Below are positions 3,938 through 63,565 of a DNA stretch of 64,000 nucleotides, one piece after another. The position numbers and the translations under genes are program-made. The notes below the pieces were generated by a model, which was not told the origin of the DNA, did not search any database, and was given only the letters and a program-made list of their open reading frames with translations. Source of the stretch: Terriglobia bacterium (GTDB taxonomy: Bacteria; Acidobacteriota; Terriglobia; Terriglobales; Acidobacteriaceae); contig JAIQEU010000006.1 in the NCBI GenBank assembly GCA_020073665.1, forward strand, positions 434,001 through 498,000. The letters run 5' to 3'. Positions within the stretch are counted from its first letter, which is position 1. Each line of letters opens with the position of its first letter.

Positions 3938-4074
3938 GACGGGTATCTCCTTGCAGTGGTGCGGGCGGGGCCGGATTCTAATCGCCGATCGGATCGAACG
4001 GGTGGAGTTTGTACCGGCGGGAAAAACAAGTCAAGATGCAAGTTTTTGCAGTCCCAGGACGGTACAATCCCGTG

Positions 4075-4821
4075 ATGATGACTTCGCAGCAGAAGCCTTT
4101 GCAAGGCAAGACGGCTTTCATTACCGGCGGAGCGCGGCGACTCGGGCGTGCCAGTGCGCTGGCTCTGGCGCGGGCCGGGGCAGACGTCGCCATCACGTTC
4201 CGCAATTCCGCGCGCGAGGCGCAGCATACAGTCATCGATGTAGCCAGCCTCGGTGTACGGGCAGTCTCGTTGCGTTGCGACGTAACTGACCAGAAGAGTG
4301 TCCGGGCGGCGCTGAAAGAGGCGGTCAAGGAACTGGGCGGGCTCGACATCCTGGTGAACAACGCGGCCAACTATGAAACCGTCGAGTTCGAGAAGCTCAC
4401 GCTCAAGCAGTGGGACGCGATCTTCGCCTCCAATACCCGCGGACCATTTCTGGTTTCGCAGGAGGCGGTGAAGTATCTGCGCGCGCGCAAGGGAAAAATC
4501 ATCAACATGGGCTCGCTCGGCGGATTGCGTCCCTGGGCCGACCACGCGCACTACTGCTCGTCGAAAGCGGCGGTGCACATGTTGACCCGGGTGATGACGA
4601 AAGCGCTGGCCCCGGAGATCGCGGTGAACTGCGTAGCTCCGGGCATGATTGATCTGGGAGAGAAATCGGCGGCAGCTTTCATGAAACGCATGGCCCGGCA
4701 AACGCCGATGCGGCGCAACGGGACCGGGGAGGAGATCGCCAGTGCCGTTCTTTTCTTCGCTACGGCGCCGCATTTCATTACCGGACAGGTACTGGCGGTG
4801 GACGGCGGATTGGGGCTGTAG
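4075..4821 (+). CDS. SDR-family NAD(P)-dependent oxidoreductase, FabG-like
   Basis: A short-chain dehydrogenase of about 248 residues. Visible motifs are the cofactor loop TGGARRLGRA near the N-terminus, the NNAAN structural motif near residue 90, the catalytic Ser of the MGSLGG segment, the Y-x-x-x-K pair in HYCSSKAAV, and the C-terminal TGQVLAVDGG. This makes it a 3-oxoacyl-ACP-reductase-like or pteridine-reductase-like enzyme acting on a carbonyl/alcohol pair. The TGG-x-RR-LG loop suggests NADPH. The frame is open back to 4009, but the ATGATG at 4075 sits right after a TACAAT box (4063-4068) and matches the usual family N-terminus. The substrate is unknown. Confidence 0.9.
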   Translation: MMTSQQKPLQGKTAFITGGARRLGRASALALARAGADVAITFRNSAREAQHTVIDVASLGVRAVSLRCDVTDQKSVRAALKEAVKELGGLDILVNNAANYETVEFEKLTLKQWDAIFASNTRGPFLVSQEAVKYLRARKGKIINMGSLGGLRPWADHAHYCSSKAAVHMLTRVMTKALAPEIAVNCVAPGMIDLGEKSAAAFMKRMARQTPMRRNGTGEEIASAVLFFATAPHFITGQVLAVDGGLGL

Positions 4822-4892
4822 TCAACCCGGCGCTCACGTGCCCGGCTAACGAATGTCGCCGCGTCGCGACTGGAAACCGAACTTCTCTTTAT

Positions 4893-4921
4893 TTGTCATC
4901 ACCCAGACTTTCCTGTATCGT
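4893..4921 (+). promoter_or_regulatory. Sigma70-like promoter for the PagL-like gene
   Basis: TTGTCA (4893-4898), a 17-nt spacer and TATCGT (4916-4921). The expected transcript start is about 4928, only some 6 nt before the ATG at 4934, so the mRNA would be nearly leaderless. Confidence 0.45.
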
Positions 4922-4933
4922 GGCCAGCTTCGC

Positions 4934-5521
4934 ATGAAAAGAGCTCTTTTGATGGCACTGTTGTTGGGCGCGTCGCTGGCCTGGTCGCAGACCCGGCCGG
5001 AAGACGGTGGCCGCGAGTTACAGCTATGGAGTGGTGGCGGCCACTCGGTCAGCGGCGGCACCAGCAAGACCGGGGTGTGGAACATCGGCCTGCGCTATGG
5101 CTGGATCTTGACCCGCCCCTATGGTCCCGGCTTTCTGAAGGGGCGGTTCGAGTATGCCGTCGACGCGGTGCCCCTGTTCATGGTTTTCCAGCCGGCCAAC
5201 ACCGCCTACGGCGTGGCACTTAACCCGCTGAACCTCAAGTGGAACTTCGCTACTCGCGGAAGTGTCGTTCCCTACATTGAACTGGCCGGCGGCACACTCT
5301 TCACTTCTGAAGAGGTTCCCCTCGGAACTTCAAAAGTGAACTTTACCTCCGGGGCTGCGCTGGGGACGTATTTCCTCGGAAACAAGCGTAACTGGAGCCT
5401 GGAAATCCGCTACATGCACATTTCCAATTCGGGGCTTACTTCTCCGAATCCTGGAGTCAACACCGTCCAGGTACGGCTGGGCATAGGGAAATTCCTCCCG
5501 GGACGGCGGGGCAAGCACTAG
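4934..5521 (+). CDS. Acyloxyacyl hydrolase, PagL-like lipid A 3-O-deacylase
   Basis: About 195 residues with a signal peptide (MKRALLMALLLGASLAWS, cleavage near SQT). The mature part alternates short amphipathic strands as in an eight-stranded outer-membrane barrel. The C-terminal segment R-Y-M-H-I-S-N-S-G-L followed by NPG.N carries the His-Ser pair of the PagL family, which removes the 3-O-linked acyl chain from lipid A. The family is usually about 170-190 residues long, so this is full length. An upstream in-frame ATG (4853) was rejected because a promoter (TTGTCA-17-TATCGT, 4893-4921) and the signal peptide both point to 4934. It has no operon partner. Confidence 0.85.
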   Translation: MKRALLMALLLGASLAWSQTRPEDGGRELQLWSGGGHSVSGGTSKTGVWNIGLRYGWILTRPYGPGFLKGRFEYAVDAVPLFMVFQPANTAYGVALNPLNLKWNFATRGSVVPYIELAGGTLFTSEEVPLGTSKVNFTSGAALGTYFLGNKRNWSLEIRYMHISNSGLTSPNPGVNTVQVRLGIGKFLPGRRGKH

Positions 5522-26314: not shown

Positions 26315-26710
26315 TCAGTGCGGCTTTGGCTTCTCCGCTGGTTTGGCATGGGCTTTGATGTAGTCGATTGCATTGCCCACGGTGTGCATCTTCTCTGCGT
26401 CTTCATCGGAAATATTTATGTCGAAGGCTTCCTCGAAGGCCATGACCAGTTCCACCACATCCAGAGAGTCAGCTCCAAGGTCTTCGATGAAACGCGCACT
26501 GGGGACCACCTTGGCCTCGTCAACCTCCAGTTGCTCCACGACGATTTTCTGGACCTTCTCGGCGACCGGATCCTTTTGCGGGGGGTCGGAGGTCTTTTGT
26601 GGAGGCGCAGCGGTTGCCGCGGTTCCCCGGAGGAAAACCGAAGCCGTAAAGGCTGCGGCGGTGACCGTGGACCATGACAGAAACTTCCTGCGAGACCACT
26701 TCTGAGTCAT
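26315..26710 (-). CDS. Acyl carrier protein with an N-terminal Tat-type signal
   Basis: A 131-residue protein. Residues 1-35 form a twin-arginine signal: basic start, S-R-R-K-F-L at 6-11, a hydrophobic stretch and a cleavage-like ATAA at 32-35. A Pro/Gln/Lys linker follows. Residues about 49-122 are a complete acyl carrier protein with the phosphopantetheine site Ser82 in [16 protein letters not shown], plus the usual helices III and IV. No alternative ATG, GTG or TTG occurs between the signal and Met90, so the ACP core must be made with this leader. If exported folded by Tat, it would carry a phosphopantetheine arm outside the cytoplasm. No fatty-acid gene is nearby. A hairpin (26727-26742) lies just upstream. 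Confidence 0.85.
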
Positions 26711-26726: not shown

Positions 26727-26742
26727 GGAGAGGCAGCTCTCC
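26727..26742. promoter_or_regulatory. Hairpin upstream of the Tat-ACP gene
   Basis: Perfect six-base arms GGAGAG and CTCTCC around a four-base loop, starting 17 bases upstream of the ATG at 26710. It could be a leader structure; no known riboswitch class is recognised. Confidence 0.3.
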
Positions 26743-59833: not shown

Positions 59834-61671
59834 TTCGACGCCTGCGACTCCTCTTCGCGCTCGCGGTACTGATCTCGCTGGGAGCGCTGTTCGCACCAGC
59901 GCAGAATGCGCCATCTTCAACAGAATCCCGGGTGTCGTACATGCTGTCTCTTGCGAACGCGGCGGAACATCGCGTACTGGTCACCATCAAACTGCTATCC
60001 TCGAACTCACCGGAAGACGATTTGCAATTGCCGGTTTGGAATGCCCTCTACCAGGTGCGTGATTTCTCGCAGTATGTGAACTGGGTGCGCGCCACCAGCA
60101 GCGCGGGTGAACCTCTGAGAGTCCACACGTTGAACAAGAGCCGGTGGCGTGTCACGGGCGCTGGCCCAGGAACAGAAATCCAGTACGAGATTGTCGCCGA
60201 CCAGCCTGGACCCTACAACGCGCAGATCAATAGCCATCATGCATTTTTCAATCTGGCTGAGATTCTGATGTATCCGGTTGACCTGCGCGACGCTCCGATC
60301 CGCGTCCAGGTCACTGACGTACCTTCGGGCTGGAAGCTGGCAACGGCATTGGAGGCGTCGCGCACGGCCGCCCCTCCGGGTTGGGAGTGGACAGCGCCGA
60401 ACTACGATCGCCTGGTGGATTCGCCCGTCGAAGCCGGCGACTTTGAAGAAAAAGATTTCGACCAGGGTGGCGGTCGCTATCGCGTCGTGGTCGACGCCGA
60501 TCGCGCGGATTATGATCTGCAGAAGATTGTTTCCATGGTGCAGCGGATTGTTGCAGCGGAAACTGATTGGATGAACGATCGCCCCTTCGATAGCTACTTG
60601 TTCATTTACCACTTCCCCCGGGAGTCCAGCTTCGGAGGAATGGAACATGCGTACTCCACCGCGATCGACTTAAACGCCCAAACCCTGGCCGACAACCCGC
60701 AGCAACTGGCCGACGTTACCGCGCATGAATTCTTCCACCTGTGGAATGTGAAACGCATCCGCCCGCAATCGCTCGAGCCGGTCGACTATACGAAGGAGAA
60801 CTACACGGATGCGTTGTGGTTCAGCGAAGGCGTGACCAACACGGTGCAGGATTATGCACTGCTGCACGCGGGATTACTCGACGACCTGCAGTACCTGAAT
60901 CGCTTGGCGGGACAGATCGGCACGCTGGAGAGCCGCCCGGCGCATCGCACTCAATCGGCTGAAGAGTCGAGCCTGGATGCGTGGCTGGAGAAATACCCGT
61001 ACTACCGCCAGCCCGAACGCAGCATTTCCTACTACAACAAGGGAGAACTTCTGGGCGTGATGCTGGACCTGGCGCTGCGTGACGCCAGCAACGGGTCGGC
61101 CACGCTCCGCCAGGTCTTCCAGTGGATGAACCAGAACTATGCCCGGCAATCGCGTGTTTTTGCCGACTCCGATGGCGTCCGGCAGGCGGCGGAAACCGTC
61201 GGCCACGCCGATCTCGGCCGGTTCTTCCAGAAGTACGTCTCTGGAACGCAGGAAATTCCCTGGGACGACGTGTTCAAGACGGTGGGCCTGCGCCTGGTAC
61301 GCACCCAGGTCTCGGTCGCCGATCCCGGGTTCGACGCGTCTCAGAAGTTCGACACACCACCCAGCGTCTTCTACGTAGCTCCCGGCAGCGTGGCCGAGCG
61401 CGCGGGGTTGGCCATCGGGGACATCGTCCTCCAGATCAACGGTCGAATCGCGGGGCCCACTTTCCCGCGACAACTGGCGGAGTTGCGTCCTGGGGACACG
61501 ATTCACCTGCGGGTGCGCAGCCTTCGCGGCGAGCGGGAGATACACTGGAAGCTGGCCAGCCGGGAAGAAGTTGAGTTTGAGCTGAAGGATGTGGACAATA
61601 TCACGCCACAGCAGAAAGCCCGTCGTGCCGCGTGGTTGCACGGTGAATCCCAAGGAGACGCGCGCCCGTGA
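59830..61671 (+). CDS. Exported M61-family metallopeptidase with C-terminal PDZ
   Basis: A 613-residue protein with a signal peptide (RLRLLFALAVLISLGALFAPAQ). The metalloprotease motif H-E-F-F-H (His299, Glu300, His303) in TAHEFFHLWNVKRIRP and the FSEGVTN glutamate define peptidase family M61 (glycyl aminopeptidase). The final part (about 500-585) is a PDZ domain (YVAPGSVAERAGLAIGDIVLQING). The start is a GTG at 59830 sharing GTGA with the mpl stop; upstream in-frame codons belong to another frame of mpl. It overlaps the next gene by the same GTGA. A role in periplasmic peptide processing is plausible, not shown. Confidence 0.88.
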   Translation: MIRRLRLLFALAVLISLGALFAPAQNAPSSTESRVSYMLSLANAAEHRVLVTIKLLSSNSPEDDLQLPVWNALYQVRDFSQYVNWVRATSSAGEPLRVHTLNKSRWRVTGAGPGTEIQYEIVADQPGPYNAQINSHHAFFNLAEILMYPVDLRDAPIRVQVTDVPSGWKLATALEASRTAAPPGWEWTAPNYDRLVDSPVEAGDFEEKDFDQGGGRYRVVVDADRADYDLQKIVSMVQRIVAAETDWMNDRPFDSYLFIYHFPRESSFGGMEHAYSTAIDLNAQTLADNPQQLADVTAHEFFHLWNVKRIRPQSLEPVDYTKENYTDALWFSEGVTNTVQDYALLHAGLLDDLQYLNRLAGQIGTLESRPAHRTQSAEESSLDAWLEKYPYYRQPERSISYYNKGELLGVMLDLALRDASNGSATLRQVFQWMNQNYARQSRVFADSDGVRQAAETVGHADLGRFFQKYVSGTQEIPWDDVFKTVGLRLVRTQVSVADPGFDASQKFDTPPSVFYVAPGSVAERAGLAIGDIVLQINGRIAGPTFPRQLAELRPGDTIHLRVRSLRGEREIHWKLASREEVEFELKDVDNITPQQKARRAAWLHGESQGDARP

Positions 61672-62429
61672 TTCGGACCGTGATGATGCTGACGTTCTGG
61701 GGAGTGCTGCTGCCGGCGGCGGCGCTGGTGTGCTTTCCCTGGACCATTATTACCGGGGATATTCGCTTCCTCTACCGCGTGGGCATGTGGGGCGCCTTCA
61801 CTGGGGTTCGATTGGCGGGCGTGAAGGTGCAGACCGTGGGACGGGACAAATTGAAGACCGGGCGCACCTACGTCTTCATGGCGAACCACGCATCCGTGCT
61901 TGATCCCCCGTTGCTGTTACCGCTGCTGCCCGGCAGGACGTCGGTCATGGCGAAGAAAGAGCTGTTCAACTACCCCATCCTGGGCAAGGTCATGAAGTTG
62001 GGGTCGCTGGTTCCTGTGGACCGCGGCGATCGCGACGCCGGCATCGCGGCGGTACGCGCGGCTGAAGAAGTCATTGGCCAAGGCATCAGCATGACCATCT
62101 TTGTCGAAGGCAAGCGGTCACTCGATGGGAAACTGCTGCCCTTCAAGAAAGGGCCGTTCTACCTGGCCACCGAGTGTAATGTGCCGGTGGTGCCGGTCAC
62201 CGTCCTGGGGACGCATTCCATCATGCCCAAACACCGCTTCGCGATCCGGCCCGGGACGGCGACGGTGATTTTCCACGATCCCATCGAGGCCAAAGACTTC
62301 GGCAGCCGGGAATGCCTGATGTCCAAGGTTCGGCAGGCGATCAGTGGCGGGTTGGCTCCCGAGTACCAGGAAGAAACGCCTCAAACCACTAAGGACGCGA
62401 AGTTTCACGAAGGAACCGCTTCGGCATAA
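61668..62429 (+). CDS. plsC: 1-acyl-sn-glycerol-3-phosphate acyltransferase
   Basis: A 253-residue PlsC-type acyltransferase. The NHASVLD box (His74, Asp79) and the E-G-K-R-S box (residues 147-151; E-G-T-R-S in most homologues) are present. A hydrophobic N-terminus (about 5-30) anchors it to the inner membrane. It acylates lysophosphatidic acid to phosphatidic acid. Its last residues (TTKDAKFHEGTASA) have low conservation and derive from a spacer-like sequence. The start is a GTG overlapping the M61 stop (GTGA). It converges on lpxD. Confidence 0.9.
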   Translation: MIRTVMMLTFWGVLLPAAALVCFPWTIITGDIRFLYRVGMWGAFTGVRLAGVKVQTVGRDKLKTGRTYVFMANHASVLDPPLLLPLLPGRTSVMAKKELFNYPILGKVMKLGSLVPVDRGDRDAGIAAVRAAEEVIGQGISMTIFVEGKRSLDGKLLPFKKGPFYLATECNVPVVPVTVLGTHSIMPKHRFAIRPGTATVIFHDPIEAKDFGSRECLMSKVRQAISGGLAPEYQEETPQTTKDAKFHEGTASA

Positions 62430-62459
62430 GAACTCTGCATCCCTGGCGTTCTTCGTGTC

Positions 62460-63461
62460 TTAATTTTTTGCTTTTCCTCTCAGCGCCTTGGCGATCTCCG
62501 GCAACTTGGGAAACACCGCTGTGCACCGCAACCACTGCTTGTGATCGAACGCTGGCGAGCCGCTGACCATGGCTCCAGCGGGGATATCACCGTGCGTGCC
62601 ACTTTGAGCGGTGACGATGACGCCATCGCCGATCTTGCAGTGACCGGCAACTCCTGCCTGTCCCGCCAGGATGACGTTTTTCCCCACCTCGGTTGACCCA
62701 GCCAAGCCGACCTGTGCACACAGCAGGGTGTCGTCGCCGACGCGGGAGCCATGTCCTACCTGGACCAGGTTGTCGATCTTTACGCCACGGGTGACGCGGG
62801 TCTCGCCTACGCTGGCGCGGTCCACGCAGGCGTTGGCTTGCACCTCTACGTCGTCCTCGAGAATGGCGGGGCCGGACTGCACAATCTTGTACCAGTGTCC
62901 GGAATCGTCCTTGGCAAAGCCAAAGCCGTCGGAGCCGACTACCGCTCCGTTCTGCAAGGTGACATTGTTCCCCAGTTGGCAATGTTCTCGCACCACGGCA
63001 TGGGTATGAGCAAAGAAGTTGTCGCCGATAGTTACGCCGCGATAGATCACCACGTGAGCCAGTAATACGGCGCCGGTACCAATGCGAACATTCTCGTCCA
63101 CGACGGCATATGGCCCGATGTGGGCACCAGTTCCGATTTTCACCGAACCATGCACCACCGCGGTGGGATGAATCCCCGGGGCATACTTGGGCGGCTGGTA
63201 GAACAACTCGAGGCAGTGCGCAAAGCAGAGATAGGGGTTCCGGCTGCGCAGCATGGCTCCCGGAATCGCCGGAAAATCCTCCGCCACAATGACCGCGGAT
63301 GCGCGCGTGCTCCGAGCCGAAGCGGAATATTTTGGATTGGCGACAAAGGTGATCTGGCCGGAAGCAGCTTCTTCGATTCCGGCCACGCCGGTAATTTCAG
63401 TATCGGGCGAACCGTTTTCCAGGCGGGCGCCAAGGATGGAGGCGATCTGCGCGAGTTTCAT
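62460..63461 (-). CDS. lpxD: UDP-3-O-acylglucosamine N-acyltransferase
   Basis: A 333-residue LpxD. The N-terminal uridine-binding domain (about 1-100, with ITFVANPKYSASA) precedes a left-handed beta-helix of hexapeptide repeats (about 105-290). The conserved VQVGHGSRVGDDTLLCAQVGLAGST contains the catalytic His, and the C-terminal helical part (HKQWLRCTAVFPKLPEIAKAL) fits the family. It adds the N-linked hydroxyacyl chain in lipid A synthesis. The ATG at 63461 (MKLAQIASILG) was chosen over an upstream in-frame ATG at 63527. It stands apart from the other lpx genes. Confidence 0.92.
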   Translation of the reverse strand: MKLAQIASILGARLENGSPDTEITGVAGIEEAASGQITFVANPKYSASARSTRASAVIVAEDFPAIPGAMLRSRNPYLCFAHCLELFYQPPKYAPGIHPTAVVHGSVKIGTGAHIGPYAVVDENVRIGTGAVLLAHVVIYRGVTIGDNFFAHTHAVVREHCQLGNNVTLQNGAVVGSDGFGFAKDDSGHWYKIVQSGPAILEDDVEVQANACVDRASVGETRVTRGVKIDNLVQVGHGSRVGDDTLLCAQVGLAGSTEVGKNVILAGQAGVAGHCKIGDGVIVTAQSGTHGDIPAGAMVSGSPAFDHKQWLRCTAVFPKLPEIAKALRGKAKN

Positions 63462-63565
63462 AGGGATGTATCCGTGAACCGGAGATTGTAACGGAGTTTG
63501 GTTAGTTGGACAGTATCGTGCCGCCACTCTCGGCGAAATGGCCGTAGCGAGCTCTTGACCAACGA

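Follow-up and report, generated by a model that had tools for sequence, protein, structure and literature searches.

The window, by which we mean the whole 64,000-nucleotide stretch of DNA analyzed here, contains a gene whose predicted product joins a twin-arginine (Tat)-type leader to an acyl carrier protein (ACP), which raises the question of whether an acyl carrier can leave the bacterial cytoplasm. Envelope acylations are ascribed to membrane-spanning acyltransferases or phospholipid donors, whereas activated acyl thioesters are generally regarded as restricted to the cytoplasm. The reading that we prefer, at a probability of about 0.5, is that a fifth, diverged FAS-type ACP of the host gained a twin-arginine signal peptide and is exported folded, as a holo carrier, with cleavage near residue 34. 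The host appears to be an acidobacterium, since its genome belongs to the same family as one in which an ACP frame is identical to a frame recorded for Candidatus Korobacter versatilis. The gene lies on the minus strand (the original prediction gave no strand), and its parts and the DNA immediately ahead of it are as follows.

26315 to 26710, minus strand: leader-bearing ACP gene, a 131-aa ORF consisting of a Tat-type leader, a linker, an acyl carrier domain, and a short Lys/Pro tail
26606 to 26710, minus strand: predicted leader, aa 1 to 35, with SRRKFL at aa 6 to 11, an uncharged core at aa 12 to 27, Arg28, and an ATA/A cleavage-like site at about aa 34/35 (regions and site read by eye)
26573 to 26605, minus strand: linker rich in Pro and Lys, aa 36 to 46, of low model confidence
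26345 to 26572, minus strand: acyl carrier domain, aa 47 to 122, with helices at aa 48 to 61, 82 to 96, 102 to 107, and 111 to 121
26465 to 26467, minus strand: codon of Ser82, the predicted 4'-phosphopantetheine attachment site in GADSLD
26727 to 26742, minus strand: GGAGAG-CTGC-CTCTCC, a perfect inverted repeat with 6-bp arms, located 16 bases ahead of the ATG (found by eye)

The claim that the gene encodes a complete ACP domain, with Ser82 in a GADSL motif, is borne out by profile matches and by conservation. The Pfam PP-binding family (PF00550) matches aa 51 to 118 (E = 2.7e-12, 47.2 bits), and the NCBIfam acyl_carrier model TIGR00517 scores 111.7 bits against a cutoff of 70.45. In PHROGs, five families match: two carry the name acyl carrier protein, and the function of the other three is unknown. 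The Ser of D-S-L and the conserved residues of helix II are kept, as are 37 of the 40 columns in which conservation across 144 other ACPs is 90% or more; the deviations are Gln54 for Lys, Val57 for Ile, and Ser101 for Pro. Across the full set of 145 rows, the median number of deviations is 0, with 17, 8, and 6 in the three rows that deviate most. The final AlphaFold (AF2) model, for which the input was an alignment of 11 exact sequences, has four helices, with block pLDDT values of 89 to 91 over aa 51 to 120 (mean, 72.2; pTM, 0.54) and low confidence in the leader and tail. A previous model in which these helices were also present, built on an alignment with one mistyped row, matched solved ACPs in the PDB, the top three at 60 to 62% identity and an rmsd of 0.5 to 0.7. 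As modeled, the ACP part is predicted to adopt the four-helix ACP fold.

The codons of the ACP part were compared with those of 11 ACPs of equal length only, with unequal rows such as L088 and L124 left out. Codon positions 1, 2, and 3 differ at 13 to 25, 8 to 14, and 39 to 52 of 77, respectively, such that third positions vary 2.9 to 6.5 times as often as second positions; 22 to 35 of the codon differences are synonymous and 21 to 32 are nonsynonymous. To judge from the sequences, this pattern looks like a signature of constraint, part of which may predate the fusion.

The leader shows all three regions of a signal peptide, and features of Tat substrates are present in it: S/T-R-R-x-F-L in the n-region, an uncharged core, and an AxA end. 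Because both curated Tat profiles score it below their cutoffs (21.8 bits for PF10518, TAT_signal, whose gathering score is 22.7; 12.6 bits, E = 0.14, for TIGR01409, whose cutoff is 16.7), we call the leader Tat-type and do not file the gene as an established Tat substrate. The twin-arginine export signal of the original prediction stands as far as the SRRKFL motif, the core, and the cleavage-like end are concerned but not as far as the profiles are. A leader rule devised after the gene was seen (an RR motif within the N-terminal 22 aa, an uncharged hydrophobic 13-mer, and AxA) selected 10 of 4484 first-ATG ORFs of at least 60 aa in 1.29 Mb of window and loci, with overlapping loci counted repeatedly. 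The strict [STN]RRxFL form is found in five of the 10, each of them a copy of the leader-bearing ACP gene in overlapping loci. Since the strict form occurs in no other gene among the 4484 ORFs, its origin by chance is unlikely, although the rule postdates sight of the gene.

The first standard start in the frame is ATG1, and the 53 codons upstream are open and contain no ATG, GTG, TTG, or stop. It had been claimed that none of the three start codons occurs before Met90, which is incorrect in the letter, as GTG is found in frame at codons 58, 68, 85, and 86; the substance of the claim holds, in that all four lie inside the ACP domain (GTG58 within helix I) and none could yield an intact leaderless ACP. 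Synthesis of a leaderless ACP from an internal start was considered and ruled out: with no ATG, GTG, or TTG between codons 1 and 58, an intact leaderless form has no standard start. Weaker candidates in the frame are CTG at codon 11 and ATC at codon 56. By eye, no Shine-Dalgarno-like sequence is visible before ATG1, and a crude scan for sigma-70-like promoters returned 0. The inverted repeat ahead of the ATG is perhaps an operator or an RNA hairpin, or it may be due to chance.

These observations bear on whether the leader could be an artifact of misassembly, a frameshift, or a wrong start, the true product being a plain cytosolic ACP. The host genome (5.42 Mb) is in 62 contigs, no independent assembly of it came up, and the searches recovered the leader from no other source, all of which would fit an artifact. 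However, there is no stop either inside the ORF or in the upstream codons, no ATG, GTG, or TTG lies near residue 47, where plain ACPs begin, and the GC content of first, second, and third codon positions within the ACP part (0.69/0.25/0.68) is consistent with coding. We regard an artifact as highly unlikely.

According to the export reading, the precursor would fold in the cytoplasm, and the host's own enzymes would attach 4'-phosphopantetheine and perhaps an acyl group as well. The Tat system would then move the folded holo-ACP across the membrane, and a cut after about residue 34 would leave a periplasmic carrier of about 97 residues. The host genome encodes TatC (240.8 bits) and three phosphopantetheinyl transferases of the ACPS family that score above the cutoff, and a gene for a signal peptidase of the S26 type is located within the 64-kb window. 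We infer the expression, export, cleavage, and holo state of the protein alike.

Alternatively, the leader might be an uncleaved anchor that fixes the ACP to the inner membrane, facing the cytoplasm if the protein is unmoved or the periplasm if it is moved, where it would feed membrane acyltransferases. The 16-residue uncharged core would suit an anchor, and the Pro-rich linker is a possible tether, but ATA/APP looks like a signal-peptidase site, and Arg28 and the mild core suit a Tat signal better under the rule of Sec avoidance. An anchor is improbable in our estimation, if less so than an artifact.

The host genome encodes five FAS-type ACPs in all. The four further close ACPs are arranged as two tandem pairs (G000:C11:32661/32918 and C21:14428/14099), and their domains are 63 to 67% identical to that of the leader-bearing ACP (57% over the longer match at C11:32918). 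All four begin with a plain Met at the domain, and none has an RRxFL leader. Both pairs are near an amidohydrolase-like ORF; the pair at C11 is followed by a fabF-like ORF (named by eye from the translation) and the pair at C21 by pieces that resemble fabF (by eye) at the edge of the examined stretch. Tandem ACP pairs are also found in the loci of several relatives, e.g., L010, L014, L017, and L019. At C21:14428, starts at in-frame TTG codons would place PARRTLPLHQFVRPSTLLVPFFIF ahead of the plain Met and so supply an uncharged stretch and an RR pair; the C11 counterpart has a similar upstream stretch, PARPALPLHQFVPPGTLLVPFF, but with RP in place of RR. Both stretches are probably untranslated upstream DNA.

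As far as can be seen from the sequences searched, the combination of leader and ACP appears to be a chimera confined to one genome. An ACP match at an E value of 1e-10 or better was found in 60 of 61 genomes of relatives (the host's own included), and the window's gene is the sole one whose alignment starts at residue 1. At the family level, 31 of 300 genomes have a match at 1e-29, which is full length only in the window's gene, and an 84-aa query matched 1 of 399 genomes of the class and 1 of 396 genomes of the phylum, in each case the host itself; the family, class, and phylum sets overlap and include the host genome. The 84-aa query matched none of 40 genomes reached through other loci, a search without a positive control, and in a Nitrospirota-centered sample 5 of 385 genomes have a match at 1e-26, all to plain ACPs. 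The family, class, phylum, other-locus, and Nitrospirota searches used strict E values, below which a diverged leader-bearing ACP could fall. The genus is represented by the host genome alone, and among plasmid records, 211 have a match, with none spanning 80% of the query.

No leader-bearing ACP is found among the best 80 of 571 relatives (one genome per species). Six alignments in this group run into leader residues (L064, L088, L094, L096, L097, and L110), and in the frames concerned RRxFL is absent and the domain follows a plain start Met. Among distinct carrier frames, RRxFL behind a start codon occurs in 1 of 146, that of the leader-bearing ACP. These frames are from 149 motif-holding loci; 42 of the 191 loci lack the motif and were mostly picked for other genes, with L006 to L008, L134, and L141 being the ACP-search loci among them. 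Some RR letters are present behind an in-frame start in ten other loci, together with an uncharged 13-mer only in the C21 paralogue. Homologues without the leader, which had been set beforehand as refuting the proposal, were thus found; this leaves a conserved role unsupported, whereas export of the host protein is not disproved by it.

With regard to origin, a recent duplication within the genome was ruled out for the ACP part, whose best DNA identity there is only 73 to 74%. A search of the host genome for a donor of the leader DNA found none, the best match being one 28-base piece at 86% (E = 2.9). The two nearest ACPs by score are from the same family, at 71 and 73%. A 145-row tree places the leader-bearing ACP, on a long branch (0.96), beside two Nitrospirota ACPs (support, 89/76), and a 67-row tree places it inside the acidobacterial rows (support, 90/74). 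For the latter tree, 12 rows (8 loci) were chosen and 28 were drawn at random from 103 eligible acidobacterial rows, 24 rows were counted as nonacidobacterial (among them the unclassified L093 and L121, which were placed among acidobacterial rows), and 3 Nitrospirota rows were added; 18 of the 145 rows, including L091_95, L128_132, and L098_103, were unused. Neither a grouping of the 40 acidobacterial rows against the other 27 (p-AU = 0.285) nor one of 6 rows, Nitrospirota plus the leader-bearing ACP, against 61 (p-AU = 0.465) was rejected. The trees disagree and 77 columns are too few; neither a horizontal origin from Nitrospirota nor an acidobacterial one is rejected. Elsewhere among these ACPs, L091 (Candidatus Angelobacter) has two ACPs in tandem, one normal and the second highly divergent; the latter has an end branch of 7.7 and 17 of the 40 conserved columns changed.

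The direct neighbors of the leader-bearing ACP gene are genes for a radical SAM/B12 protein, a tRNA-Gly, and an Nramp-type transporter, and no partner enzyme adjoins it. The description of the gene as standing alone, with no fatty acid genes nearby, is accurate for these direct neighbors but not for the window as a whole, in which a survey that covered part of the ORFs identified the following lipid-related genes farther off.

1043 to 2611: AMP-binding ligase
4009 to 4821: SDR
4853 to 5521: PagL-like protein (lipid A 3-O-deacylase), next to the SDR
61668 to 62429: PlsC-type acyltransferase
62460 to 63527: LpxD-type protein

The PlsC-type gene is beside the LpxD-type gene on the opposite strand (61668 to 63527), about 35 kb from the ACP gene; LpxD uses acyl-ACP. 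The synteny comparison was based on an Nramp query, which had matches in 90 of 100 genomes of the family, and covered the best 30 loci, one of which is the window's own. In the 29 other mntH-type loci (tblastn; flanks of about 1.5 kb, some cut by contig ends), nothing matched the leader-bearing ACP better than E = 0.36.

A fusion that arose by chance or is private to the lineage, in which an ACP copy lies behind a Tat-type leader and is little expressed or is exported to no purpose, would account for the leader-bearing form in one genome only among those searched, the leader DNA without a genome match beyond the one short piece, the isolated gene with no conserved neighborhood in the foreign loci, and the failure to see a Shine-Dalgarno-like sequence or a promoter. 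On the other hand, the identity of the ACP part to its best genome matches indicates that the copy is not very recent, nearly all of the conserved columns are still kept (though this constraint may predate the fusion), the frame is uninterrupted, and the three regions of a signal peptide are present in the leader. With no leader-bearing relative, a lineage-private accident stays a serious rival, although we think it rather unlikely.

Overall, what counts against the export reading is the lack of a leader-bearing homologue, the Tat profile scores, the three deviations from conserved columns against a median of 0, the long branch, the lack of visible expression signals, and the lack of an adjacent partner enzyme. 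The original proposal that a loaded ACP is exported by Tat draws support from a constrained ACP behind a plausible Tat-type leader, from the lack of a standard leaderless start, and from the TatC and phosphopantetheinyl transferase genes, but this support does not extend to a dedicated, conserved role. The dedicated carrier role is left unsupported, with neither a leader-bearing homologue in the searches made nor a partner enzyme. It is unlikely, though less so than an anchor, that the protein is a natural periplasmic carrier, i.e., an ACP that is loaded in the cytoplasm with phosphopantetheine, and possibly with an acyl group, is exported folded by Tat, and supplies envelope enzymes with a reactive thiol or an activated thioester, no acyl carrier bound to the membrane being involved. 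If true, an exported holo-ACP would represent a different solution to envelope acylation, and one that is readily tested through a single gene and a single mass shift, that of phosphopantetheine (340 Da, as given in PMC3418276).

Among known systems, the AcpP proteins of type II fatty acid synthesis have no leader, reside in the cytosol, and are often encoded beside fab genes. AcpP (PDB 1l0i and 2ehs) shares with the leader-bearing ACP its fold, the GADSLD site, and the helix II residues, at 60 to 61% identity; what sets the leader-bearing ACP apart is its Tat-type leader of 35 aa, the Pro linker, the C-terminal KPAEKPKPH tail, and its solitary gene. The host's own C11 and C21 pairs are similar in the domain but have no RRxFL leader. 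Mitochondrial NDUFAB1 and the apicoplast ACP also have an N-terminal targeting sequence, which directs import into organelles. These proteins (PDB 8e73 and 2qnw) go into organelles, whereas the leader-bearing ACP is predicted to leave the bacterial cytoplasm.

Among openly licensed PMC papers, searches for a periplasmic, secreted, or extracytoplasmic ACP found none, and the titles and abstract openings from wider searches name no natural exported ACP. The closest precedent is engineered: according to PMC3418276, preYebF-ACP and preMBP-ACP are Sec substrates with which holo-ACP crosses the Escherichia coli inner membrane, the modified fraction being small under normal conditions, and Tat is put forward in its discussion as another possible route. 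As described there, those constructs are artificial and Sec dependent and place a whole secreted protein ahead of the ACP, whereas the leader-bearing ACP is natural and its leader is of the Tat type.
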